Assembly (NCBI RefSeq): GCF_024741135.1 | Contig: NZ_JANSUY010000001.1 | Span: 496,001 to 560,000 of the forward strand | DNA: 64,000 bases | Source: Aquiflexum gelatinilyticum | GTDB taxonomy: Bacteria > Bacteroidota > Bacteroidia > Cytophagales > Cyclobacteriaceae | Direction of reading: 5' to 3' | Shown here: positions 4,136 to 26,827 of the stretch, one piece after another | How the letters are laid out: the number at the start of each line of letters is the position of its first letter | Numbering within the stretch: the stretch's first letter is position 1 | Program-made: the position numbers and the translations under genes | The notes under the pieces: model-generated | The model's input: the letters and a program-made list of their open reading frames with translations, nothing else | Databases searched by the model: none | Told to the model about the DNA's origin: nothing

Positions 4136-4357
4136 AAAAAGACAAAAGATTTGAGACATGAGATGTGAGACTTTGGGAAATTTAGAATGCTGTGGGAATA
4201 ATGAAGAATTTTGGGATTCAACAACTTGATAACCCGCCAACGCGAAGCAGACAACAATTACAACCACTACAACAATTACAACTAATCAAAAGAGAGATTC
4301 TTCGCTTCACTCAGAATGACGGATAAGAGACCCTTTGTCCCTCAGGTTGAAGACTCC
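4136..4357. repeat. Compound intergenic repeat, copy 1
   Basis: No gene. Between two convergent genes lie modules that recur elsewhere in the window: a GAGAC/ATGAGA purine tract (about 4140-4172), a CCAACGCGAAGCAGACAAC core (about 4239-4257) followed by a CAAC/TACAAC tract to about 4283, and a REP-like CCCT...TCAGG segment (about 4330-4347). The CAAC tract points at the 3' end of the minus-strand YdcF-like gene, as it does in the copies near 26.7, 45.9 and 51.0 kb. Confidence 0.6.
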
Positions 4358-5128
4358 CTAAATATACCCCACCACCCAATACACCGTAATTCCGATCCAT
4401 TCTTTGAAGAGTTTGTGCCACATGAAAATGGAATAAGGATCAGGTTGGAGCAATTGTGGGATACTGAATCGGGTGTCTTCAGAATAATAATCCACAGGGA
4501 AAGTATCGGTCAATACTCCGGCTTTGTCAAAGCAGCCTTTGGAACGTGGCATGTGAAAAGCGGAGGTTATCAATAAAAAGTTTTGGTCTAAGTTGAATCC
4601 TTTTTGGATCAATATTTCTTTGGAGAAAAGCGCATTCTCCCGGGTATTTTTTGCCGCAGGTTCTACCAGAATATCCTGTTCAGGGATCCCTGTCATTACC
4701 ATAAAATCCCTTAGCAATTCGGCTTCCGTATTGGGATTAGCAGGATTAAGGCCCTTACCTCCTGTGATGAGGATTTTTTTGATTTTACCCAATTTATATA
4801 GTTGTACGGCATGTGTGGCACGGTCGGCACCTTTGTTGAAAAAAGTGCGGTCATAGGCGGTTTTGTTCAGGTTCGTTACGCCTGTCAGCACAATGCCGAC
4901 TTCATACTCAGGTAGTTTGTCAAAGGCTTTGAAATCCGGTTCCCAAGCTTTCATGGCTACATTTGCCAAAAACTGATTTGAGAAAAGAAGCAACAGAATG
5001 ATCCCACTTCCCATTAATTTCTTGCCGTACTTCTTTTTGCGGAGCCAAAATCCTGATATCAATAAAATCAGGATAATGGTCATTGGCATGGCCAGAAAAC
5101 TCAGAAACTGGGAAAGGTAAAAGAACAT
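4358..5128 (-). CDS. YdcF/SanA-like membrane protein (DUF218)
   Basis: About 256 residues from the preferred ATG at 5128 (MFFYLSQFLSFLAMP); an in-frame ATG at 5170 would add 14 residues but the shorter start fits the usual beginning of this family. Two N-terminal membrane segments are followed by a DUF218 domain with GIVLTGV, KKILITGGKG, EPAAKNTRENA and LLITSAFHMPRS. These proteins (YdcF, SanA, ElyC) act at the envelope; ElyC affects peptidoglycan lipid-carrier metabolism, but a precise reaction for this copy is not shown. Convergent with the M20 gene and preceded by a structured repeat. Confidence 0.85.
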   Translation of the reverse strand: MFFYLSQFLSFLAMPMTIILILLISGFWLRKKKYGKKLMGSGIILLLLFSNQFLANVAMKAWEPDFKAFDKLPEYEVGIVLTGVTNLNKTAYDRTFFNKGADRATHAVQLYKLGKIKKILITGGKGLNPANPNTEAELLRDFMVMTGIPEQDILVEPAAKNTRENALFSKEILIQKGFNLDQNFLLITSAFHMPRSKGCFDKAGVLTDTFPVDYYSEDTRFSIPQLLQPDPYSIFMWHKLFKEWIGITVYWVVGYI

Positions 5129-5237
5129 GTGGATGGGTTTTTGGGAAAAGAAGTTTTGCTTAAAGAGCAAACCTAATATGTATTTTCGAATTTATTAAAA
5201 TGATTCTTAAGGCTGTGAGAAAAACAGTTGAAGTTTC

Positions 5238-5340
5238 TAAAGCTACTTTTTTGCTTGACCAAAAAAGTAGCCAAAAAAGTCAAGACGGCGGAATCCTATC
5301 CACCCACAAGGCCGGAGCCGGCCCGGTCCGCCGTCGTCCT
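5238..5340. repeat. Nested REP-like hairpin element
   Basis: Three inverted repeats lie side by side. GCTACTTTTTTG at 5242-5253 pairs exactly with CAAAAAAGTAGC at 5260-5271. GACGGCGGA at 5284-5292 pairs exactly with TCCGCCGTC at 5327-5335. Inside the latter loop sits the palindrome GGCCGGAGCCGGCC (5310-5323). A frame can be read through it but it is a by-product of the palindromes. Similar 'KATF..QKSS.KSQ' spurious frames accompany dispersed repeats in many Bacteroidota. A related GCCCGGTCCGCCG stretch occurs near 32320-32345. Confidence 0.7.
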
Positions 5341-5423
5341 ACCCACCTCAAAAATACAAGATTCAGTATTAAGTTAAGATTTATGAAAAAAGTAAGATTT
5401 GCCTACAGATGGGCGCAGAACAA

Positions 5424-5521
5424 TTAACCAATCAACTAAATAACCCCTAACCAAATTAACCAATCCTTCGACAAGCTCAGGGACATAACAACAAATAACC
5501 AATAACCAATTAACCATCCAA
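5424..5521. repeat. AACCAAT-type intergenic repeat next to a stop codon
   Basis: Several units of AACCAAT/TTAACCAA flank a CCTTCGACAAGCTCAGGGA segment (about 5465-5483), a motif common in Bacteroidota intergenic repeats. The tract abuts the 3' end of the minus-strand DUF1905 gene at 5522. In the sense of that gene it reads as TTGGTTAATTGG, the same sense as the tract that follows the plus-strand DUF1456 gene at 56309. Confidence 0.6.
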
Positions 5522-6043
5522 TCACCAGCCTTTATCCAGATTGTTATAGTACTTGATTTTTTCATTCAGCATTTTGTAGTCGAGTTTTCCTTTCACATCT
5601 TTCAGGTGTTCGATGATGGCAAGGGACTTGTTGAGCCGTGAATTGGTGTTTTTGACTTTGGTGACAATGTAGATCAGTCCCCGCTGTTTACCTTTGGTCA
5701 GTGCATAGAAATAGCCGCTCCCCACTTCATCTTGATCGAGGAGCACCTGCAATTCCTCAGGCATTTCATGTCCATATTCCGATAGGTCCTTTTCTAAGGT
5801 CATGGTGATTTTGTCTCCCTCGGCGATTTTGAGCTTTTCCCGGTTGGGCTTATTGAGCAGAATAAACCAATATTCCTTGGTTTTCATCAGGGCAGCAGGG
5901 AAGACAGGGATTCCTTCCAAGTGAACCCTCACCCGTCTGTTGTCTCCTTCAATAAACTGCACCGCAATGTCATCCGGCACGGGCAGGTGAAATCTCCAAA
6001 GATTGGTATGGAAATCTTCCAATGTGGATAAAAATGAGATCAT
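5522..6043 (-). CDS. DUF1905/YdeI-like protein
   Basis: 173 residues. The first ~95 residues match the DUF1905 fold as I recall it (LWRFHLPVPDDIA, VHLEGIPVFPAALM, FILLNKPNREKLKIAEGDKITMTL split over residues 15-90), and the remainder resembles the YdeI/Omd-associated helical tail (ELQVLLDQDE, RGLIYIVTKVKN, KLDYKMLNEKIKYY). The tail replaces the more usual 'bacteriocin-protection' core with a shorter helical stretch. Cytosolic, no signal peptide. Divergent from the PhyH gene with a 52 bp shared upstream region. Family function is poorly defined. Confidence 0.7.
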   Translation of the reverse strand: MISFLSTLEDFHTNLWRFHLPVPDDIAVQFIEGDNRRVRVHLEGIPVFPAALMKTKEYWFILLNKPNREKLKIAEGDKITMTLEKDLSEYGHEMPEELQVLLDQDEVGSGYFYALTKGKQRGLIYIVTKVKNTNSRLNKSLAIIEHLKDVKGKLDYKMLNEKIKYYNNLDKGW

Positions 6044-6095
6044 TTCAGAGAATATTTTTCTCTAAATATCGCAGTTTTTCGGTTAAATTAACAGC

Positions 6096-7022
6096 ATGAC
6101 AAATGATCCCAAATCCAATTACTCGGTTTCCAAGACGGCCATAACCAAGCTCAATGACCGCAGCAATGGAATGCCATTACAGGTAATGTCTGAGGCGGAC
6201 TGGGATTTTTGGATCCACCACGGCTATGTGATCATCAAAAATGCTGTACCAACAGCTCAGGCAAAAAAGTTGGCGGATTTCTTATGGGAATACGAGGGAA
6301 AAGATCCCCAAAACCCCGAGACCTGGTACCGAAAAACCAATCCGGATATGGAGATGAAGGAATTGGTCAATACCGGAATGGTCGAAATCTACCATCACCA
6401 ATACCTTTGGGACAACAGGCAGACATCCAAAGTCCATCAGGCTTTTTCGGATATCTGGGGCACCGAAAAACTATGGGTGACCATCGACCGGGCCAACCTC
6501 AACTTCCCCATCCGGTCCGGATTTGAATACAAAGGTTTTATCCATTGGGATTATGATCCCGAAACCAAACCCCAAAATGTGCAGGGTGTCCTTGCCCTCG
6601 CAGACCAAACCGATGAAGAAATGGGCGGCTTCCAATGTATTCCGGAGCTCTATCGGACTTATGATACCTGGAAACTTACCCAAGCTGCCGACCGCAATTA
6701 TTTCCAACCCGACATCAGCGGATTTGAACTGACCAAAGTCAAACTGGAGGCTGGGGACTTGCTGATCTTCAATTCCCTTTTGCCGCATGGAATCCGTGCC
6801 AACAAAAGCAAAGACAAAGTCCGCATTGCCCAATACCTCTCCATGATGCCCGCCGAACCCGAAAATGAAGCTCTCCGTCAGTGGCGCATCCACAGTTGGA
6901 AAAGCCGTGAAGCACTGAAAGGATATGCCTTTCCCGGTGACCCTTTACAAAGGGAAAAACAACATCCTGTAGCTGAATTGACAGATTTGGGGATGAGATT
7001 ATTGGGATTGGAGGAATGGTAG
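6096..7022 (+). CDS. Phytanoyl-CoA dioxygenase (PhyH) family protein
   Basis: 308 residues of the Fe(II)/2-oxoglutarate-dependent PhyH family. The iron-binding HxD is in FIHWDYD (His150, Asp152), the distal His in LLPHGIRANKS (His231), and the 2-oxoglutarate-binding Arg is probably Arg243 (KDKVRIA). Predicted reaction: oxidation of a small organic substrate with release of succinate and CO2; substrate unknown. The gene stands alone between a divergent DUF1905 gene and a repeat-rich spacer. The ATG at 6096 leaves a 40-residue N-terminal extension before the DWDFWIHHGYV segment that opens the conserved domain. Confidence 0.85.
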   Translation: MTNDPKSNYSVSKTAITKLNDRSNGMPLQVMSEADWDFWIHHGYVIIKNAVPTAQAKKLADFLWEYEGKDPQNPETWYRKTNPDMEMKELVNTGMVEIYHHQYLWDNRQTSKVHQAFSDIWGTEKLWVTIDRANLNFPIRSGFEYKGFIHWDYDPETKPQNVQGVLALADQTDEEMGGFQCIPELYRTYDTWKLTQAADRNYFQPDISGFELTKVKLEAGDLLIFNSLLPHGIRANKSKDKVRIAQYLSMMPAEPENEALRQWRIHSWKSREALKGYAFPGDPLQREKQHPVAELTDLGMRLLGLEEW

Positions 7023-7389
7023 GGGAAGTACGAGAAACGAGAAACGAGATGCGAGATGCGAGAGAGAGTGCCGAGATGAGGATTCAATTCTAAATAAATA
7101 ATGATGAATGAATTTCTTTGGAAATATAGCTATCACCTGCCTTAAGCTGCTTTAGTGAACGGCTCAAAGGTACCTAAGGTGTAACGCAGACACGGAGTAT
7201 GGGTAGGAGAGACACGGAGTATGGGTAGGAGGGACACGGAGTATCCCTAGGGGAAGGTGGGTGGAGCTGTAGCGGGACCTTAGGTAAAGGGTAGGAGATC
7301 CTAAGGTGAGAAACAAGGTTGTTTCCCAATATTCTGACATTATTCCTAAATTTAATGGGTTGGCGTTTACAAACTTTAATGGGTAGAAT
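7023..7389. repeat. Spacer with 22 bp tandem repeats and 9 bp inverted repeats
   Basis: No gene. It opens with a GAGAAACGAGA purine tract (7030-7078). A 22 bp unit starting GACACGGAGTATGGGTAGGA occurs at 7189-7210 and 7211-7232, with a third partial copy at 7233-7251. ACCTAAGGT (7172-7180) on the left is the exact reverse complement of ACCTTAGGT (7277-7285) on the right, and TCCTAAGGT recurs at 7299-7307. The tandem array is therefore enclosed by an inverted repeat. Confidence 0.65.
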
Positions 7390-7839
7390 ATGATGACTCG
7401 GCTTTTTCTTTACATGCTTCTTGGGCTCCACCTTTTTCTGGGTTTGGGAGCATTAGCCGGAGGGGGAATGTTGGTCCTGCAACCGGATGGTTCCTTGCTT
7501 GGTATGGAACCCGGATGGCTTGCTCAATCGCCATTCAGTTCTTACCTCATTCCCGGTTTTATCCTCTTTATTTGTAGCGGCTTGCTTCCTTTGTTTTCCC
7601 TAGTTGGATTACTTTTCCAGCCAAGATGGCGATGGGCAAATGCGCTCAATATCTACCCAAACAGGCATTGGGCATGGACATATTCCCTGTATTCGGGCAT
7701 TATTGTAATTACCTGGATTACTGTTCAGCTGGTTATGACACAGTATTTTTGGTTGCAGCCGGTTATGATTTTCACCGGGTTGCTGATAGTTATTTTCACT
7801 TTGACGCCTTCCATCATGAAAAAATTCGAATTGGAATGA
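7390..7839 (+). CDS. Small polytopic membrane protein, unknown function
   Basis: 149 residues with about four hydrophobic helices: near 3-30 (LFLYMLLGLHLFLG), 50-78 (SYLIPGFILFICSG), 93-115 and 118-140. The WxxQxxxRHWAWTYSLYSG arrangement and the helix pattern suggest a simple inner-membrane protein with no catalytic motif. It uses ordinary codons like its left-hand neighbours and stands alone at the left edge of the accessory region. Not assigned to a family by me. Confidence 0.65.
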   Translation: MMTRLFLYMLLGLHLFLGLGALAGGGMLVLQPDGSLLGMEPGWLAQSPFSSYLIPGFILFICSGLLPLFSLVGLLFQPRWRWANALNIYPNRHWAWTYSLYSGIIVITWITVQLVMTQYFWLQPVMIFTGLLIVIFTLTPSIMKKFELE

Positions 7840-8007
7840 GCGGAAAAATCAATAAAGATTCCCTGATAAGCATACAAGGCCGAAAAACCCCGTGAGGGAT
7901 TAATCCCCCAAGTTTATATGTGCGGAAGTTATCCTTTGGGAAATAAAGGTCATCCAATAAAGTCCGTTTGGGGTTGAAATATTTTTTTAAGATTTAATTT
8001 TTAGCAA

Positions 8008-8961
8008 ATGGCGGGCGAGGATTGGGTTCTTTTGAATTCAGTAAGAGGACAAAAGTCTTTTCAGCTAAACTTTAAGGTTTTTTCTTTATTTTCGTCCGGA
8101 TTACCAAATAAAGACATTAAGTTGAAAATTAAGAGCGGAGAGATAGTGCGAAAATATTTTCATTGCTATGCCACAGCAAATGAGTCCCGTCTTTATTCAA
8201 AAGACATTCAAAACTTAATGCGCATCAAGAACTGTAATCCGGCATTGGATAAAATAGTCTTGTTTATTGCCATCAGTAAGGTGAAGGAAATCAGTTCTTA
8301 TGATGAGTTTTTTGTGAAAACTGTTAAGAAAATCTTTCTCGGACATCCTTCCATAGAACTGAGGGAAATCTACTTTAAAGATAATACCGGACGTGATTTC
8401 AGTTCATTTCAATCACTGTTTGAAAAAGTAAAAATCAGCGCCGATCCTGAGGATTATATCCTGTTCCAAAATAGAAGTGGCTATGGCCCATTTCATGAAA
8501 ACTGGTACAGGCAATTTGTAAAACAGTTTGAGAAATTTGATTCAATATCCCTTTGCGGCAGTACCATAAATTTCCTTGACCACCCAAAAAGGAGTTTAAG
8601 GAATGATTTACCACATGTACAGACCTATTCTTTTTTAACAAAAGTTTATTTCATGGATATGCTTGGAAAGGCTTTTCCTGCTTCAAACGAAACCAAAAAA
8701 CTGGATATAGTCCTCAATGGAGAAATAGAAATGAGTCAATTTTTTTTAAGAAATAACTTTAAAATAACCTGTATGGAATGGCCTGATTTAGCGATTTCAA
8801 ACCAAACTATCCCCCCTATTTCTTCCGACATTAAAACAAAGGTCAAGGCAAAGCATTATTTCTACCACAGGATGTATTTTAGAAAAAACAAAATTAAAAA
8901 ACTCGGTCAAATAATACCCGGAATGGTCCTTTGGATGAATTTTGTAAAACAGGGGTTATAA
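8008..8961 (+). CDS. Rhamnan-synthesis-F/glycosyltransferase-like protein
   Basis: 317 residues, AT-rich. Two motifs resemble those of the RgpF/rhamnan synthesis protein F group: NTGRDFSSF (126-134), corresponding to the family's 'N.G.DFGAW'-type stretch, and LFQNRSGYGPF (152-162), corresponding to 'LLNDSVYGPL'. Those proteins transfer sugars or assist in surface polysaccharide assembly. No membrane span or signal peptide is seen. There is no polysaccharide gene cluster around it; the next gene is a methyltransferase 0.4 kb away. The family call is based on motif resemblance only. Confidence 0.55.
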   Translation: MAGEDWVLLNSVRGQKSFQLNFKVFSLFSSGLPNKDIKLKIKSGEIVRKYFHCYATANESRLYSKDIQNLMRIKNCNPALDKIVLFIAISKVKEISSYDEFFVKTVKKIFLGHPSIELREIYFKDNTGRDFSSFQSLFEKVKISADPEDYILFQNRSGYGPFHENWYRQFVKQFEKFDSISLCGSTINFLDHPKRSLRNDLPHVQTYSFLTKVYFMDMLGKAFPASNETKKLDIVLNGEIEMSQFFLRNNFKITCMEWPDLAISNQTIPPISSDIKTKVKAKHYFYHRMYFRKNKIKKLGQIIPGMVLWMNFVKQGL

Positions 8962-10027: not shown

Positions 10028-10204
10028 TTAGCGCAATATGAATGGTATGAATAAAATGTTGGGGTGCCTTAGAACAACATGAATACTCAAAGCCGGATTT
10101 CAAAAATAGATTGTAGCGGCAATAGAAATCGAATTCAGGTAGGAATTGCAAAATGATTTTGAGTCAGCCAAAATGCGTTTGCTCGTAAATAAATCAAGCA
10201 AGAC

Positions 10205-10488
10205 TATTTTTACATTAAATCCTTCATTCATTCCTTTTTCCGCGCTGCCCTTGTTTTTTATATCGATTGGGATTTCAAAAAATGGACTTCCATGACCGTC
10301 TTGATAATAGGCAGCCTAGTTCCCGATTTTGAAAAACTCACCAACAGGAGACTGGGGAACATGTTTAGCCATACTTGGGAAGGTATTTTCTGGTTCAGCT
10401 TGCCGGTAGGGTTATTGCCCTGATTTTTTTTGATGGGCTTTTGGCGACTTGTTTGAAATACCAAAAAGAATTAAGTTTAAATAGTTGA
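10205..10488 (+). pseudogene. Decayed DUF4184-like gene fragment
   Basis: Translating three frames in succession gives a recognisable but broken protein. The middle piece, 10277-10423, reads KKWTSMTVLIIGSLVPDFEK and then MFSHTWEGIFWFSLPVG before a TGA. The 'IGS..PDFE' plus 'FSHT..G.FWF.LP.G' arrangement is what I know from DUF4184 membrane proteins. Pieces in other frames before (PSFIPFSALPLFFI) and after (ALIFFDGLLATCLKYQ) appear to be its continuation after frameshifts. No intact start exists. Its tail overlaps repeat copy A. Confidence 0.6.
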
Positions 10489-10569
10489 AACTTATCCGGA
10501 ACTGTCGTGCCATGTATGTCCTAGGCGTATGTGGCGGCATGATTTTGGGAAGCAAACCGGTAATATCTA
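10426..10569 (+). repeat. Cassette-boundary repeat, copy A
   Basis: About 143 bp that align with 11092-11235 with one single-base gap and roughly 70% identity. The best conserved block is AAAAAGAATTAAGTTTAAAT (10463-10482), followed by TTGAAA, TATCCG and AACTGT, and ending in ATGATT and AAGCAAA. It ends 25 bp before the start of the small membrane protein gene at 10594, just as copy B ends shortly before the DUF5343 gene. The hairpin that copy B carries has decayed here. Confidence 0.7.
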
Positions 10570-10866: not shown

Positions 10867-11091
10867 AGTTGACCGGTTGAAATACGACCAAGCCTTTTCC
10901 TAAGCAGTTTTTTTGTGGATTTCTCTTGACGGTGAAGAGGATAAATGGGGATTGATCATCACAACTTTTCAGCTTTTATGATAGGTCTGATTGCTATGTT
11001 GCTTTGGATTAGTTCTTTAATGAGTAGCTGTCAAAAACTTAAATAGACAAGCTAGGATGCTGTCACCCTTGAACTGCCATATTTTGATTTA
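10867..11091 (+). pseudogene. Untranslated gene remnants
   Basis: A short open piece at about 10972-11046 (AFMIGLIAMLLWISSLMSSC) follows KWGLIITTFQ in another frame and ends at a TAG. This hydrophobic tail may be the displaced C-terminus of the same DUF4184-like gene whose front part lies near 10277. There is no start codon or continuous frame. Weak evidence. Confidence 0.35.
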
Positions 11092-11235
11092 TTTTTTGAT
11101 GAGCTGTAAGCGGTTTGTTTAAAAAACTAAAAAGAATTAAGTTTAAATAATTGAAATATATCCGCAACTGTTGCGCTATGCATTCTATTTGGCATACATA
11201 GCGCAATGATTGCATGAAGCAAATCGTTAGCATAA
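11092..11235 (+). repeat. Cassette-boundary repeat, copy B, with hairpin
   Basis: The second copy of the ~143 bp repeat described at 10426. It contains a perfect 10 bp inverted repeat, TTGCGCTATG ... CATAGCGCAA (about 11171-11206), able to form a hairpin, and ends in GTTAGCATAA (11226-11235). That end sequence is the exact reverse complement of TTATGCTAAC at 12468-12477, directly after the stop codon of the HEPN gene. Confidence 0.75.
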
Positions 11236-11258
11236 ATTAAAAATATAAACAGAAACTT

Positions 11259-11891
11259 ATGGCTCTACCAACAGCGTATCTTGTTACAACAAAGAATTTA
11301 CAACCAATAATTAATTCTTTGATTTCAGCTAAGGCACCAGACAAATTGACTGGAGGGTTCTTAAAGACATTGGGGTTCACGAGCAGTAATGACACCTTAT
11401 ATGTAAAACTATTTAAGGAAATAGGATTAATAGATGCCAATGGAACCCCAACTAGTAAATATTATGAATTTATCGACCAATCTCAAACTGCAAAGATTTT
11501 AGCTACTTGTATAGAGGAAGGTTACTCTGATTTGTTTGCGATTAATAAGCAAGCATATAAAATGACGGAGGAGGAGGTTAAAAATAAGCTAAAGACTTTA
11601 ACCCAAGGCACAATTGATGAAAGTATTTTGAAGTTAATGGCTAAGACTTTTAAAGCACTAACAGAAATTGCTGATTGGTCAGTAAGCCACTCAAAGCCTG
11701 CAAAAAAATTGGAAGAGACCGAGGATACCAAAGTTTTCCATCAACATAGTCAAATTAATTTACCTGCATCTTCAAATGAGTCAGTTATAAATCCCACTCT
11801 TCACTACAATATTCAAATCCACTTGCCCGAAACCAGAGATTCTTCCGTCTATGACGCTATTTTTAAAAGTCTAAAACAACACTTACTCTAA
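11259..11891 (+). CDS. DUF5343 family protein
   Basis: 210 residues. The N-terminal ~140 residues look like DUF5343: PTAYLVTTKNLQPIINSLI, KLTGGFLKTLGFTSSNDTLY, LFKEIGLIDANGTPTSKYYE and ADWSVSHS. The layout resembles a winged-helix-like domain often annotated as DNA-associated. The C-terminus (about 165-210) has an INLPASSNES...LHYNIQIHLPETRD stretch, seen also in other proteins paired with HEPN partners. The stop codon overlaps the start of the HEPN gene (ATGG at 11891), so the two are translationally coupled. Role unknown; an antitoxin or sensor role is plausible by pairing. Confidence 0.75.
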   Translation: MALPTAYLVTTKNLQPIINSLISAKAPDKLTGGFLKTLGFTSSNDTLYVKLFKEIGLIDANGTPTSKYYEFIDQSQTAKILATCIEEGYSDLFAINKQAYKMTEEEVKNKLKTLTQGTIDESILKLMAKTFKALTEIADWSVSHSKPAKKLEETEDTKVFHQHSQINLPASSNESVINPTLHYNIQIHLPETRDSSVYDAIFKSLKQHLL

Positions 11892-12466
11892 TGGATAAAT
11901 ATTATTCATTTGTATTTAAAGGACTATTGACTGAAGAGGCTTTGGATAAGGCTGGTAGAAAAAATCCAGCTCTTTTAAGCAAGATAGAAAATGCGGAATT
12001 AGAAAAACGACTTTGCATTGACCAGGTTGAAGATTCCATATTGATTAAAGCTCAAAATATGTCATTGGTATTTATTGCAATTTATTCTTTTGAAAATACT
12101 GTTCGTGCTTTCGTAGAAAAGAAATTGTTAGAAGAAATCGGGGAGAATTGGTGGGACGACTCTGTTCCTGAAAGTATAAGGAAGAAAGCTGCGATTAGAA
12201 AGGATGAGGAGGATAAAATCAAATGGCACACGCAAAGAGGCGAGTCTTTAATTCAATTTATTGATTTTGGAGACTTATCTTCTATAATTAATAAAAAATG
12301 GGACTTGTTTCAACCCCATTTAAACTCATATGAATGGGCCAACCAACTATTTAAGTCTGTTGAAAGGTCAAGAAATGTCATTATGCACAGTGGCTATTTG
12401 TCTATGACAGACATTGAACGGGTTGGCGCATTGATCAGAGATTGGTATAATCAAACTAGTTTATAA
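11891..12466 (+). CDS. Swt1-type HEPN protein, candidate ribonuclease toxin
   Basis: 191 residues, mostly helical. The segment MSLVFIAIYSFENTVRAFV (about 57-75) and the active-site motif RNVIMH (Arg161, Asn162, His166; Rx4H) match the Swt1-like HEPN domain. Such domains are metal-independent RNases in toxin-antitoxin, abortive infection and RNA-processing systems. The start overlaps the DUF5343 stop codon by one base. A 10 bp inverted repeat brackets the two-gene unit. No restriction-modification or CRISPR genes lie next to it. Confidence 0.75.
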   Translation: MDKYYSFVFKGLLTEEALDKAGRKNPALLSKIENAELEKRLCIDQVEDSILIKAQNMSLVFIAIYSFENTVRAFVEKKLLEEIGENWWDDSVPESIRKKAAIRKDEEDKIKWHTQRGESLIQFIDFGDLSSIINKKWDLFQPHLNSYEWANQLFKSVERSRNVIMHSGYLSMTDIERVGALIRDWYNQTSL

Positions 12467-12467
12467 C

Positions 12468-12595
12468 TTATGCTAACAGCACCAACCCAAAAGTGGCGGT
12501 ACATTGGTTAAATCAAGCTTTGAGTTTCTATCAAAGTCTGCGTTTGTTTGACAGTGAAGTGCTTCGAAATCGCCGGGATCCCAAAACGTTAAAAA
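12468..12595 (+). other. attC-like structured non-coding segment
   Basis: The segment opens with TTATGCTAAC (12468-12477) one base after the HEPN stop codon and ends at ACGTTAAAAA just before the HNH start. Nested complementary pairs can be drawn: TAAC (12474-12477) with GTTA (12588-12591), CCC (12486-12488) with GGG (12575-12577), GGCG (12495-12498) with CGCC (12571-12574), and an inner CTTTGA/TCAAAG hairpin (12518-12523/12531-12536). This resembles an integron attC site in outline, but the core GTTRRRY is imperfect and no integrase is in the window. Confidence 0.4.
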
Positions 12596-13573
12596 ATGGT
12601 TGACTTGAACGACTTTAAACAACAGAGCGAATGCTTTTACAAGAATGAACATTATTCTGTTCGTGACAACGGAGCGGTATTACGTTTACCACTTGACCCA
12701 ACACGACCAAGACCAACAGATAATAAATGGACTCCCGGTAAAATAAACAACAAATCAGGCTATTTTGAAATTGCTACGGTTCCAATTCACAGAATAATTG
12801 CAACTGCATTTCACGGAGAACCACCAACAAAAGAACACGTCGTTGACCACATTGATACAAACAAACAAAATAACCGACCAGAAAATCTACGTTGGGTAAC
12901 AAGATTAGAAAACATACTGCTTAACCCAATCACAGCAAGACGGATAGAACTTGTTTGCGGAAGCATTGAAGAATTTCTTGCCGACCCTTCAAAATTCCGA
13001 GACAAATTCCAAGAACCAAATTATGCATGGATGTGTACGGTTAGTGTTCAAGAAGCACAAGCAAGTAAATCAAGACTTTTGGCTTGGGCTGAAAGCAACA
13101 AACCATTAAGAGGTGGAAAATTAGGAGATTGGATACATAATCGAAGATCACAAAATGTTCGAATTGAGGAAGTTCCCGAATTTACAAATTCATTAACTCT
13201 AAATGCAAAACAGAAAAGTTGGAAAACACCCACCGAATTTCCTTGTTGCCCTCAACAATTTGGTACCAATCCAATTTTGGAATACAGTGAAAAACTAAAA
13301 GTAAAAAAAGTGTTTTCTCTAAATCAGTATTCCAAATCAATTATTGAGAATTTTGCCATTTCAAAAGACGAAACCGTTTTATGGATTATGTGCAAGAGCA
13401 GTGACGAAAACGCCATAAAACCTTACTCTTTAGCGGAAGTAACTTATTTGAATGATTATTTTGTACATAATTACCTTGGAAGTTTTTTCAAGAAAGATGG
13501 TGCAGAGAAACAATTTACCCTTGCTCAAGGACTCGAATGGACAGGAGGCGAAACATTTGACGAACAATGCTAG
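12596..13573 (+). CDS. HNH endonuclease family protein
   Basis: 325 residues with an HNH_3-type core: PIHRIIATAFHG (63-74), VVDHIDTNKQNNRPENLRWVT (split: VVDHID 82-87; NRPENLRW 93-100). The preceding region has a NUMOD-like 'RDNGAVLRLPLD' stretch (23-34). These proteins cleave DNA at the HNH centre with a divalent metal; free-standing ones include homing endonucleases. The C-terminal ~200 residues match nothing I know. AT-rich codon usage. It ends 57 bp before the left copy of the 49 bp direct repeat, so it may belong to the same insertion history. Confidence 0.7.
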   Translation: MVDLNDFKQQSECFYKNEHYSVRDNGAVLRLPLDPTRPRPTDNKWTPGKINNKSGYFEIATVPIHRIIATAFHGEPPTKEHVVDHIDTNKQNNRPENLRWVTRLENILLNPITARRIELVCGSIEEFLADPSKFRDKFQEPNYAWMCTVSVQEAQASKSRLLAWAESNKPLRGGKLGDWIHNRRSQNVRIEEVPEFTNSLTLNAKQKSWKTPTEFPCCPQQFGTNPILEYSEKLKVKKVFSLNQYSKSIIENFAISKDETVLWIMCKSSDENAIKPYSLAEVTYLNDYFVHNYLGSFFKKDGAEKQFTLAQGLEWTGGETFDEQC

Positions 13574-13629
13574 AAAATAAACCAAATCTGGTTAAGCCAT
13601 CCTAACTACCTTTTAGTATTGTCAATCCA

Positions 13630-13678
13630 CCTTAATATTGTAAAACTAAATTTCAAATTTTAATGAAATCCATCTATC
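13630..13678 (+). repeat. 49 bp direct repeat, left copy
   Basis: Bases 13630-13678 are identical to 15752-15800. A further 21 bp to the left (13609-13629 against 15731-15751) match at about 15 positions. The right copy is the promoter region and first codons of the PEGA lipoprotein gene. The left copy therefore carries an orphan ATGAAATCCATCTATC (starting 13663) that continues only to a 20-codon frame ending in TAG at about 13723-13725. Confidence 0.95.
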
Positions 13679-13741
13679 CCCCTTACTACAGATATAAAAT
13701 GATAGAAATAGGGGCTAACCTCTAGCCAAAATTAGAAAAGG

Positions 13742-15040
13742 ATGAGTACAGAAAGAATTGAAGAAAACCCATCATTCAAAGACTTAAAAGAAAAATTTGA
13801 TTCTTTTCAAAGCCTGAAAGGATTCCTGAAATTCTTTTCATTTCTTGGATTGATTGACAAGAACAAATTCAAAGAAGACTTCGGCAAGTTCGAAGGAATG
13901 AAAAAGGAACTTGAAGAACTCTCTAAAATTCCTGATACTTTCAATAGGCTATTTGCGAAAAGAGGCTGGATTGCTTGTGAATCCATGAAGGCCGATATCT
14001 TGAAAGAAGCAATTGAGAGAGCTGAAAATGAATCAATAGAAGCAGGCGAAAGAATCCTAATCGAATATTTCAAAAGTGAGAATTTGAGATGGAAGATCGG
14101 AACACTATTTGGTACACCTGAAATGAAGATCCGAGTCTCAATAATTAACCACGCATATGATGAGTTTATAGAACGGGATTACATGTCGTGTATACCATTA
14201 ATATTAATGGTTATTGATGGTGCTGTCTCGGATGTGAATAAAAAATATGGTTTCTTTTCGGAACAATCAGAGTTAAAATCCTGGGATTCAATTGCGGCTC
14301 ATAGTACAGGTTTGTCGGTTCTACGAGACCTCTTCTTCAAAGGAAGAAATAAAACAACAAGTGAGCAGATTGAAACCCCTTTCCGAAATGGCATCCTTCA
14401 TGGAAGAGATCTTGGTTTTGCAAATGAAGTTGTTGCAACTAAATGTTGGTCAGCCTTATTCGCAGTAAGAGATTGGATTCAAGCAATTCGCTCAGAACCT
14501 AAAAGAAAAGAGAAAGAACCTGAACTACCATGGAGAGAAACTCTTAGTCTTTGGAATAAAGTTCAAGAATCTAAGAAAAGGTTGATTGATTGGAAACCTA
14601 GAGCTGTGGAACTTGGAAAAGATGCCCCAAGATCTGGCGAAATAACAGATTACAACTTTGGAACTCCTGAGAGAACGCTCGTTGAGTTCATAAACTATTG
14701 GAAATCTAGCAACTACGGAGCTATGGCTGAGCAAGTTAGTACCTTTGTTTTTGATGAAAAATCTCCTAGCAAACGAGCTGGTGAGATTAGAAGATTGTTA
14801 GCCACTAAAACTCCTCAGAAATTCGAAATATTGGCAATCGATGATCAAGCTGCCGCTATTACTGAAATATCTGTCAGAATAAGTGCAGAAGTAGGTGAAG
14901 AAACTATCATTTTCGATCATACTTTTAGATTGATCTATGAAGATGAGAATAACCAAACATTGGTAAGAGGAGAATTTGGTGGCTCATGGCGATTGATAAA
15001 GAATTTTTGGAACTTAGAATTTATCGAATTGCAAAAATAA
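13742..15040 (+). CDS. HEPN-domain protein with C-terminal extension
   Basis: 432 residues. The N-terminal ~250 residues are helical and contain PFRNGILHGRDLGF, in which RNGILH (Arg215, Asn216, His220) is the Rx4H motif of HEPN ribonucleases, close to the Apea-like HEPN form. AKRGWIACESM (72-82) is a further conserved-looking segment. The last ~120 residues (TLVEFINYWKSSNYGAMAEQ ... GEFGGSWRLI) resemble an NTF2/SnoaL-like fold. Together with the small gene behind it, it fills a segment bracketed by the 49 bp direct repeat. Probable RNA-targeting defence or stress protein; function not established. Confidence 0.65.
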   Translation: MSTERIEENPSFKDLKEKFDSFQSLKGFLKFFSFLGLIDKNKFKEDFGKFEGMKKELEELSKIPDTFNRLFAKRGWIACESMKADILKEAIERAENESIEAGERILIEYFKSENLRWKIGTLFGTPEMKIRVSIINHAYDEFIERDYMSCIPLILMVIDGAVSDVNKKYGFFSEQSELKSWDSIAAHSTGLSVLRDLFFKGRNKTTSEQIETPFRNGILHGRDLGFANEVVATKCWSALFAVRDWIQAIRSEPKRKEKEPELPWRETLSLWNKVQESKKRLIDWKPRAVELGKDAPRSGEITDYNFGTPERTLVEFINYWKSSNYGAMAEQVSTFVFDEKSPSKRAGEIRRLLATKTPQKFEILAIDDQAAAITEISVRISAEVGEETIIFDHTFRLIYEDENNQTLVRGEFGGSWRLIKNFWNLEFIELQK

Positions 15041-15174
15041 AAGTGGCTAACAAACACTATCATCCATAAGCTAAACGAGCTATTTGCAAAGGCTAGTGGG
15101 ATTAGATACTTTTAAAGATGTTTGAAAAGTCCAGCTTAAGGAGGATAGTTGGAGGTTACATAAACAAAAAAACA

Positions 15175-15543
15175 ATGTTCGGACTATTTAAAAAAAGAAC
15201 ATATCAAATAGATTTCTCTGAGAACAATAAAGAGCGATTTACTGCACTGTTGACTGAGATTCACGAGATTCTTCGTGATTCAGCCTATTCAGCACAGGCA
15301 AATTGGATTATGCAGATTTTATCATCAATCCAAAATGAAGACAAGGAAGGATTTAAACAAAAAGTAATTTCGGCTGATCTTCTGGGTGGATCTGGTTCTG
15401 TTATTGACGTCTGGATTGAAGACGAGAATAAAATGGAAAGATTGGATTACTTAATGAATGACTTTTTGGAATTGTCTGTAAAATCAGGACTAAACCATAG
15501 CGCTTTAAAATCAAGTATGACAAGAAAAATTAAAAATAACTAA
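15175..15543 (+). CDS. Small protein of unknown function next to HEPN gene
   Basis: 122 residues from the ATG at 15175 (MFGLFKKRTYQ); a frame continues upstream to 15118 but MFGLF has the better leader (AAAAAACA). It has helices, a GGSGSVIDVWIED stretch (about 73-85) and a basic C-terminus. The pattern 'G.GS..DV' occurs in a small family I cannot name firmly. The 134 bp gap after the HEPN gene and the shared insertion make it a possible partner or immunity protein, which is inference only. Confidence 0.55.
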   Translation: MFGLFKKRTYQIDFSENNKERFTALLTEIHEILRDSAYSAQANWIMQILSSIQNEDKEGFKQKVISADLLGGSGSVIDVWIEDENKMERLDYLMNDFLELSVKSGLNHSALKSSMTRKIKNN

Positions 15544-15751
15544 CCTCAAAAACCTTTCTAAAAATCGCACTTCAAACCTTCATTGAACCATTTTTCTCCG
15601 TATCGTTTTTCTTAAAAATATAGGATACGGCTTAGACAAGCATCCACCCTAAAGTAATATTTCAAGAAATAAAATTCTATTTTTGGATTAATTACGACCA
15701 AAAAAGATCCAAAACTTTTCCCCCTCCCTTCCTTGTAGTTTTGACAATAGG
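15544..15751. other. Spacer with hairpin at right end of the HEPN insertion
   Basis: No gene. CCGTATC (15598-15604) and GATACGG (15624-15630) form a 7 bp inverted repeat with an A/T-rich loop, possibly a weak terminator for the genes before it. The final ~21 bases are the diverged upstream extension of the direct repeat. Confidence 0.5.
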
Positions 15752-15800
15752 CCTTAATATTGTAAAACTAAATTTCAAATTTTAATGAAATCCATCTATC
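15752..15800 (+). repeat. 49 bp direct repeat, right copy (5' end of PEGA gene)
   Basis: The intact copy. It comprises the leader CCTTAATATTGTAAAACTAA and on through the ATG of the lipoprotein gene at 15785 to codon 5. A TTG at about 15741 could serve as the -33 element of a Bacteroidota promoter. See the left copy at 13630. Confidence 0.95.
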
Positions 15801-16282
15801 TCCAATCCATTGCCTTATTTTTGGCTGTTGCTATTTTCTTTGCGAGTTGTGGCAGTACGACCATGATCCAATCTATCCCATCAGATGCCAAGCTGTATAT
15901 GAACGGCGAGTATATGGGGAATACGCCATACACTTACCGCGATACCAAAGTAGTAGGCAGTTCCACCTTGGTCAAATTGGAAAAAGAAGGTTACAACCCC
16001 TTTAATACCTCTTTTTCAAGGGATGAGGAATTGGATGTCGGCGCTTTGATCGGTGGGGTCTTTTTGTTGGTTCCATTCCTTTGGATCATGAAATACAAGC
16101 CATTCAGGACCTATGAGCTTCAGCCTGCTGCAGAAGGATTTGATACCAACTACTATTCCATCCCGAGCGGTTTGGATAAGGCCAAGGCAGATAAATTAAG
16201 AGAACTGAAAAAACTGTTGGACGAAGGTGTCATCACCAAGGAGGAGTTTGATGCTGAGAAAAAGAAGATCCTAGAAAGTTAA
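15785..16282 (+). CDS. PEGA-domain lipoprotein with C-terminal SHOCT motif
   Basis: 165 residues. Signal peptide with lipobox FFASC (about 18-22). A PEGA-type segment follows (IPSDAKLYMNGEYMGNTPY, about 31-49, and LVKLEKEGYNPF). One membrane-spanning stretch, VGALIGGVFLLVPFLWIM, is near 81-98. The C-terminus KADKLRELKKLLDEGVITKE is a SHOCT oligomerisation motif. Probably an envelope protein; PEGA proteins bind surface or cell-wall structures. Its first five codons and promoter are duplicated 2,122 bp upstream. Confidence 0.8.
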   Translation: MKSIYLQSIALFLAVAIFFASCGSTTMIQSIPSDAKLYMNGEYMGNTPYTYRDTKVVGSSTLVKLEKEGYNPFNTSFSRDEELDVGALIGGVFLLVPFLWIMKYKPFRTYELQPAAEGFDTNYYSIPSGLDKAKADKLRELKKLLDEGVITKEEFDAEKKKILES

Positions 16283-26499: not shown

Positions 26500-26827
26500 T
26501 ATCAAGTATCAAGTACGAAGAACCAAGTATTAAGAGGCGAGAGACGAGACATAAGACAGAAGACAAAAGACGCAAGACATAAGACACAAGAATTGATTCA
26601 CCAAAGGCTTGGGGTTTCGGTGATAGGAAAAACTTTCCAATAGGTATCAGTTAACCAATTAACCAAATAACCAATCACCAATTAACCAATACCTCATAAC
26701 CTAGCAACCCGACAACCCGACAACGCGAAGCAGACAACAACTACAACTACTACAACCATTACAACATTTCCAACAAATAAAAATTTGCTGCAATAGACCC
26801 TTCGTTCCTCAGGGTGGCGCAAGCGGA
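26500..26827. repeat. Compound intergenic repeat, copy 2
   Basis: Modules from left to right: TATCAAGTATCAAGTACGAA (about 26502-26521), a GAGACGAGACATAAGACA purine tract (to 26590), TTAACCAATTAACCAAATAA (about 26649-26668), ACAACGCGAAGCAGACAAC (about 26724-26742) with a TACAAC tract (to about 26770), and CCCTTCGTTCCTCAGGGTGG-like (about 26798-26817). The order matches copies 3 and 4. It abuts the stop codon of the minus-strand CDF gene. Confidence 0.7.

Follow-up and report, generated by a model that had tools for sequence, protein, structure and literature searches.

A duplicated gene leader at the border of an integron-like cassette array in Aquiflexum gelatinilyticum

Introduction

In integrons, the 5' arm of the attC site of a cassette pairs with that cassette's own start, and islands moved by tyrosine recombinases leave an exact core with unrelated DNA beyond it and a reconstituted gene. 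Here we describe a locus that shares features with both systems, located in a 64-kb stretch (the window) of the draft genome of Aquiflexum gelatinilyticum (5.0 Mb, 57 contigs). At this locus, a gene for a 432-aa protein with an RX4H motif of the HEPN type (HEPN432) and a small gene lie between two exact 49-bp direct repeats, which copy the 5' end of a neighboring gene for a PEGA lipoprotein. Coordinates given with no contig, locus or genome name are counted from the start of the window, and the features of Table 1 are on the + strand.

A large survey names one complete integron in the phylum proper, that of Salinibacter ruber, and states that only In0 had been seen previously in Bacteroidetes (PMC9024848). 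Two other papers report integrons or intI from Bacteroidota or from the Bacteroidetes/Chlorobi group (PMC8618304, PMC2426708). The insertion of IntI is described in a further paper as essential for integron function and as not fully conserved in an integron-like subgroup (PMC8138268). Our literature searches addressed integrons of Bacteroidota, Cytophagales and Cyclobacteriaceae, cassette genesis, and HARP together with tyrosine recombinases; among the matches listed, in titles and abstract openings and with few subscription journals covered, no description of the present system was found.

Results

The cassette array

Judged by its sequence, the locus is an integron-like cassette array that extends from an attI-like site, with the first cassette beginning at 11226, to the PEGA gene, and its cargo is mostly defence-like (Table 1). 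Cassette 1 carries PDC-M34, a candidate defence pair of PADLOC (E = 1.1e-77 and 5.9e-74 for the two genes; Pfam domains DUF5343 and HEPN_Swt1), and its start, GTTAGCATAA, and TTATGCTAAC at 12468-12477 are exact reverse complements of each other (10 nt). End pairing of this kind was scored by seeking the exact complement of a cassette start (CGTTR site) downstream. Of 32 CGTTR sites at this locus and the corresponding loci of the relatives, 6 have a downstream complement, versus 0 of 32 in the upstream control. The end-paired cassettes are PDC-M34 here, a row of three in G002 and another two in G001, those five pairing over 9-10 nt (G001-G004 denote the four other species of the genus that were compared; with the present genome, G000, they make five).

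The attI-like site (site A) was recognized with a covariance model, R1, built from eight copies. It could be aligned with the site 3' of the recombinase described below, and visual comparison shows a stem almost like those of the sites 3' of the recombinase genes in G001 and G002. Site B, the attC-like site of cassette 1, belongs to a dispersed family with 13 matches in all five genomes of the genus, four of them in this one; the copy in the window folds no better than its shuffles (z = +0.80). Among the other copies, two lie 1 kb apart in G003 (G003:C23:12080 and 13101), and three are in the present genome (G000:C54:49757, C12:256748 and C43:150010), where a site-B copy on C54 stands 0.6 kb behind a site-A copy. 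For the HNH endonuclease gene, taken as cassette 2, neither a recognizable attC at the 3' end nor a complement of its start downstream was found. A search with the HNH protein matched 73 of 370 genomes (own genome included), most by the HNH domain only; among ten longer matches elsewhere, nine had their flanks viewed (L105-L113), and a cassette-like 3' site was seen by eye in one of them, in G266.

The left border of the array in the genus is a DUF4184 gene, whose G004 copy matches PF13803 in Pfam. Extra copies of the 3' end of this gene, together with site A, occur within the arrays of G001 (one, L026), G003 (two, L013) and G004 (two, L025 12001-12245 and 14496-14784). Taken as the ends of BLAST alignments, the 5' breakpoints of the copies vary (6203, 6369, 6417, 6418 and 6425 in G004 coordinates), and four of the five 3' ends fall at 6660-6667, at the site's CGTTA, with the fifth reaching 6689. 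This anatomy suggests that sites were copied with a variable piece of their flank and then used as cassette ends. Within the window, 10426-10517 and 11092-11183 form a direct repeat of 92 nt (82%), a leader with an att-like site that precedes a 90-aa gene at one place and the PDC-M34 cassette at the other. Two further stretches of the window, at about 4221-4333 and 26651-26819, belong to a short repeat family, and both match the same repeated stretches in relatives. No tRNA that might serve as an insertion target was found in the window, and the six Rfam matches were all far under the gathering scores.

Table 1 Features of the locus in window coordinates
Feature	Position	Strand	Evidence or detail
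DUF4184 gene, 5' part; left border of the array in the genus	10204..10431	+	Shares DNA identity with longer genes in G001, G003 and G004
DUF4184 3'-end copy, displaced, just upstream of the attI-like site	10907..11008	+	85% identity to the 3' ends of the G004 and G001 genes
attI-like site A, ending ..AAATCGTTA; cassette begins GTT at 11226	11122..11233	+	Covariance model R1, 42.8 bits, E = 1.6e-4
Cassette 1: PDC-M34A (11259-11891) and PDC-M34B with HEPN_Swt1 (11891-12466)	11226..12588	+	End pairing, PADLOC, Pfam
attC-like site B of cassette 1, right arm partly altered	12468..12588	+	Dispersed family
HNH endonuclease gene, cassette 2	12596..13573	+	PF13392, E = 2.5e-18
PEGA leader plus five codons, left copy	13601..13678	+	Exact core 13630-13678; repeat and genome searches
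HEPN432 gene, 432 aa, RX4H motif in PFRNGILHG	13742..15040	+	Open reading frame; motif invariant in homologues
Probable attC-like hairpin separating HEPN432 from the small gene	15043..15150	+	GTGGCTAAC .. CTATCATCC .. GGAGGATAG TTGGAGG
Small gene, 122 aa, no known family	15175..15543	+	Homologue with 75% identity in G073, where its neighbors differ
Leader, right copy: native promoter region of PEGA with its first five codons	15723..15800	+	Aligns with the leaders of G001, G002 and G003
PEGA/SHOCT lipoprotein gene, 165 aa; right border of the array	15785..16282	+	Pfam; orthologues 90-94% identical in three of four same-genus species

A recombinase linked to cassettes

No recombinase gene was found in the repeat-bounded segment. 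Elsewhere in this genome, a recombinase of 456 aa with Phage_int_SAM_4 and Phage_integrase domains is encoded at G000:C33:127274-128641 (L069:7275-8645); it also has a weak match to HARP (E = 0.0015, under the Pfam cut-off). Homologues at E <= 1e-60 occur in 178 of 295 genomes of the family Cyclobacteriaceae, own genome included, and many of the listed matches miss the N-terminal extension. The best solved chains for the recombinase are those of IntI4 (2a3v, E = 1.9e-40) and XerA (5hxy, E = 4e-39). With the IntI model TIGR02249, it scores 213 bits against a cut-off of 265 and skips profile positions of about 182-239, the IntI-specific region, and with the XerA-type model NF040815 it scores slightly higher (217 bits; cut-off 220); therefore, calling it IntI-like is no family assignment. 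No IntI above the curated cut-off was found in this genome, and the same search gave matches in all 14 control genomes, none of them over the cut-off.

A hairpin site lies directly past the stop codon of the recombinase, i.e. 3' of the gene, and the cassettes there begin at CGTT. Thirty such loci (L124-L153) were fetched, and in 23 of them the 130 bp 3' of the recombinase gave a fold z <= -2 (60 shuffles each). In two pairs of same-genus loci, L130/L131 and L132/L134, little or no difference is seen across the site, and divergence sets in immediately past CGTT. Twenty-seven loci (L124-L150) entered the end-pairing test, in which the complement was sought up to about 1.3 kb downstream; L140, L144 and L146, having no CGTTR in 145 bp, were excluded, and L138 and L148, with two candidate starts apiece, were each scored once. 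An exact 9-10 nt complement was present downstream of 17 of the 24 remaining cassettes, and for each of the 17 the permuted starts equaled the pairing length in at most 1.5% of trials. The seven failures are L127, L128, L130, L136, L148, L149 and, from this genome, L124, its own C33 cassette. Immediately behind the recombinase site on C33, an AAA_21 ATPase gene and an RloB-like gene form a pair that is a likely defence cassette (L069:8877-10929) and that did not pass the end-pairing test. Thirty loci with site A were also viewed: the recombinase stands directly upstream in two (L078, this genome; L080, G025) and a C-terminal remnant of it in one (L094, G004), and no recombinase was found upstream of site A in the other 27.

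HEPN432 and the small gene

In the initial annotation, the segment between the repeats was described as holding a HEPN gene and a small partner gene, with no integrase or transposase. Both open reading frames are present, and neither protein has an integrase or transposase domain: HEPN432 and the small-gene product each match no family in Pfam, NCBIfam and PADLOC, and in PHROGs they match only families of unknown function. In HEPN432, which also matches no Pfam HEPN family, R215 and H220 of the RX4H motif are invariant in the homologues aligned (sets of three and two proteins). A profile search of the PDB with three HEPN432 homologues gave a best E of 0.24, and an AlphaFold model from two sequences reached a predicted local distance difference test score (pLDDT) of 43, too poor for fold comparison. 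HEPN432 may serve in phage defence through RNase action of the HEPN type.

The distribution of the two genes was surveyed in separately drawn samples of the family, 390 genomes for HEPN432 and 380 for the small gene (own genome included in each). HEPN432 homologues occur in two of the 389 other genomes (G123 and G183) and in none of the four same-genus species; a pattern search over genome contigs gave 21 matches, from which no relative was confirmed. The homologue in G123 is flanked by 45-nt direct repeats that are 84% identical. Distant homologues (24-27% identity) are found on six plasmid records, from Rhodococcus, Prescottella, Acidovorax and Streptomyces, and one homologue is on a viral contig that also carries an open reading frame we judge to be portal-like; a search of phage records gave no match. 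Small-gene homologues occur in five of the 379 other genomes (G019, G073, G083, G263 and G281), and the start at 15175 is backed by the 75% identical homologue, which begins MFGLFKK. In these separate samples, no other genome appears among the matches of both genes, and the neighbors of the small gene in G073 are a SIR2-domain gene ahead of it and a 295-aa gene behind it. Since the homologues were found in different genomes and the G073 neighbors differ, a conserved pair is unlikely, and a partnership of the small gene with HEPN432 is not supported.

The sequence between the two genes points the same way. The probable attC-like hairpin there has a DNA fold z of -2.25, with 4 of 200 shuffles as good. 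Homology to the G073 small gene begins at 15161, close to the end of the hairpin (15148). A candidate site ahead of the G073 gene (fold z of -1.85, 9 of 200 shuffles) was not retained. For end pairing of the small gene, the best candidate, located at its stop codon, is a 10-mer with two mismatches. In our reading, the two genes were acquired separately and are probably two cassettes.

Anatomy of the 49-bp repeat

The repeat itself is as first reported: 13630-13678 and 15752-15800 are identical at all 49 positions, 15 of 21 positions match in the extension to the left (13609-13629), and the right copy comprises the leader plus the initial five codons of the PEGA lipoprotein gene, in which Pfam recognizes PEGA and SHOCT. 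It is the only pair of exact direct repeats of at least 25 bp in the window, and a repeat search places the core in an 81-nt pair with 88% identity and a spacing of 2122 bp. The initial annotation had named a dispersed repeat as a case that would refute it. With up to three mismatches, the 49-mer occurs twice in the 5.0-Mb genome, both times at this locus (0 for a reversed-pattern control), and a BLAST-type search with the 88-bp right copy found the same two places alone in this genome; the 49-bp sequence is not a dispersed repeat.

Outside the core, the two copies behave differently on the two sides. Over 29 bp to the left, 20 positions match and the similarity fades at 13601, and no other 29-mer of the window has at least 19 matches to this extension; to the right, 5 of 20 positions are alike. 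Mismatches between the copies number nine in the left 29 bp versus none in the 49-bp core (Fisher p = 5.5e-5), and this clustering indicates that the pair is a mosaic and not an evenly ageing duplication. The left copy opens a 20-codon open reading frame (13663-13725) that ends 16 bases ahead of the HEPN432 start codon. It keeps the TAATATTG element, and the upstream TTG of the right copy is TTT in it; we take the element and the TTG to be promoter motifs.

Comparison within the genus places the single leader at the PEGA gene. The full-length leader is single and located there in three of the four other species (G001, G002 and G003), as found by whole-genome searches that gave one match each in G001 and G003 and, in G002, one full-length match plus a 36-bp match elsewhere (E = 7e-4). 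The fourth species, G004, is without PEGA, and its genome gave no leader match at E 0.001. G001 and G003 share the PIN-domain gene that stands just ahead of the leader, a place taken in G002 by an unrelated gene of 125 aa, and the gene content of the whole DUF4184-to-PEGA interval varies among the species, with some genes common to two or more. The initial annotation had looked to relatives for a single repeat copy and for other cargo between repeats. One full-length leader after other cargo is what three relatives have, and HEPN432 is absent from all four; a tandem leader was seen in none of them. These comparisons support the view that the segment is acquired DNA and that the border where it lies differs from species to species.

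In the aligned leaders, the right copy resembles those of the genus and is the native one; the left copy departs from them in its upstream part. The divergence of the left extension, previously taken as a sign of DNA from a related strain, is real, but it is the left copy and not the right one that stands apart. The left core is without the one-base insertion and the substitutions of G001 and G002 and is identical to the right copy of this genome; therefore, the two cores have probably been homogenized in this lineage.

Further rearrangements were seen on the PEGA side of the border. In G004, almost nothing separates the upstream half of the leader from the sequence that follows the PEGA stop codon (L025 16553-16600), and short similar stretches occur at the junction. 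G001 (L026, about 5007-8856) and the matching part of G003 have an insert of ~3.8 kb with similar genes between PEGA and a BrkB-family gene; it is absent from G000 and G002, and in G004 the BrkB side lies directly behind the leader half.

Proposed origin of the duplicated border

Our preferred explanation, held with moderate confidence, is that the 49-bp repeat arose by duplication of the array's right-hand border, the PEGA leader, through one crossover with DNA that ended in the leader. The donor DNA, most simply a circle or concatemer, would have carried HEPN432 and the small gene together with the leader and five codons of PEGA. In the recipient chromosome, the HNH gene would have been the last of the array, and we infer that a single crossover took place in the leader behind it. 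The product would read, from left to right, HNH gene, first leader, HEPN432, small gene, second leader and PEGA. An identical core beside a diverged flank would result from heteroduplex repair along the crossover tract. One crossover in the leader would therefore explain together the order, the orientation, the intact PEGA gene and the homogenized core. Recombination between two leader alleles had been proposed in the initial annotation, and such recombination with diverged DNA fits the mosaic; its simplest version, an island that brought the right copy with it, fits less neatly.

Several points weigh against this explanation or against the cassette reading on which it draws. First, the odd copy is the left one, which would be expected to be the resident allele, so that the resident allele must itself have been unusual. 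Second, 49 bp is short for ordinary homologous recombination. Third, the assembly is a draft, although a misjoin is unlikely. Fourth, no cassette start is recognizable for HEPN432; 6 nt pair with its 3' site, as they do in 215 of 2000 random stretches. Fifth, the start of the HEPN homologue in G123 has no complement near the 3' end, and its flanking repeats do not fold significantly (z = -0.86 and -0.32). At last, no end-paired cassette was found at the locus in G003 and G004.

A recombination between two alleles could also have occurred by entry of linear foreign DNA, with a homologous end in PEGA and an illegitimate end at codon 5 of the resident PEGA gene. No circle is required for this, the gene order would be accounted for, the left junction (13678/13679) looks illegitimate, and homology-facilitated illegitimate recombination has been described for competent bacteria and E. 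coli conjugation (PMC3240628). However, because no crossover would fall in the core, the 49 identical bases beside a flank with nine mismatches in 29 positions are left unexplained, and we consider this route unlikely. Somewhat less probable again is that the leader was first duplicated in tandem and that cassettes were inserted between the copies afterwards. Partial copies of host gene ends are habitual at this locus, as the DUF4184 3' end with its att-like site demonstrates, but a simple duplication would diverge evenly, whereas core and flank differ strongly here, and none of the other four species has the tandem arrangement that would have preceded the insertion.

The initial annotation had also proposed a compact, self-inserting element. 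In one form, this would be a 2.1-kb site-specific element with the 49-bp core, moved in trans by an integrase encoded elsewhere and rebuilding the 5' end of its target, for which the exact core, the unrelated DNA beyond it on the right and the reconstituted gene would speak. Its own proteins have no recombinase domain, the core occurs just twice in the genome, homologues of its two genes were found in different genomes, a probable cassette site lies between the two genes, and the units recognizable at the locus are integron-like cassettes. We set this explanation aside as improbable. Chance or an artefact of the 57-contig assembly is scarcely credible, as an exact 49-bp repeat without an equal in the window is not a chance event and the DNA outside the copies differs.

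Discussion

The repeat alone would be a recombination scar; the array around it matters more. Defence-like genes are carried here by cassettes whose ends pair in the manner of integrons, and the insert that has been described as essential is missing from the related recombinases. Sequence statistics support the view that Cyclobacteriaceae may have an undescribed lineage of integrons, in which a recombinase similar to IntI and XerA lacks the IntI insert, the attI site lies 3' of the recombinase gene, and the arrays have borders with copied ends of host genes. Some of these recombinases would be distinguished by an N-terminal extension with a weak match to HARP. The copied ends, i.e. the DUF4184 3' end with its att site and the PEGA 5' end, would then record how ordinary DNA and array borders become cassettes. 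If the system is active, it would allow tests of how integron recombination arose, of how cassettes and attC sites form, and of how this family shuffles its defence genes.

Among known systems, defence proteins of the HEPN superfamily (PMC3710099) resemble HEPN432 in the RX4H motif and in the setting of its homologues, some of which are carried by plasmids or a viral contig and others of which neighbor genes typical of cassettes or prophages, whereas HEPN432 is not recognized by the Pfam models of HEPN families. PDC-M34 is matched by both genes of cassette 1, which unlike HEPN432 lies beside the repeat-bounded segment and not inside it. Islands of tyrosine recombinases that duplicate a gene end share with the segment an exact direct repeat that copies a gene end and a target gene that is left intact, but here no integrase lies inside, the repeat is confined to this place in the genome, and the left flank is diverged yet homologous. 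XerA-like tyrosine recombinases are similar in that XerA models and structures score about as well as those of IntI, and they differ in that the present recombinase has an N-terminal extension and, behind its gene, a hairpin site followed by changing cassettes. Compared with integrons proper, the recombinase lacks the IntI-specific region and scores under the IntI cut-off, with its site 3' of the gene. Other features are shared with integrons and with CALIN (clusters of attC sites without an integrase): an attI-like site by a tyrosine recombinase, cassettes that start with GTT and carry accessory genes, and cassette-end hairpins whose 5' arm pairs with the cassette start are common to them and to the system described here, and the array in the window, with no adjoining recombinase, is arranged as in CALIN.

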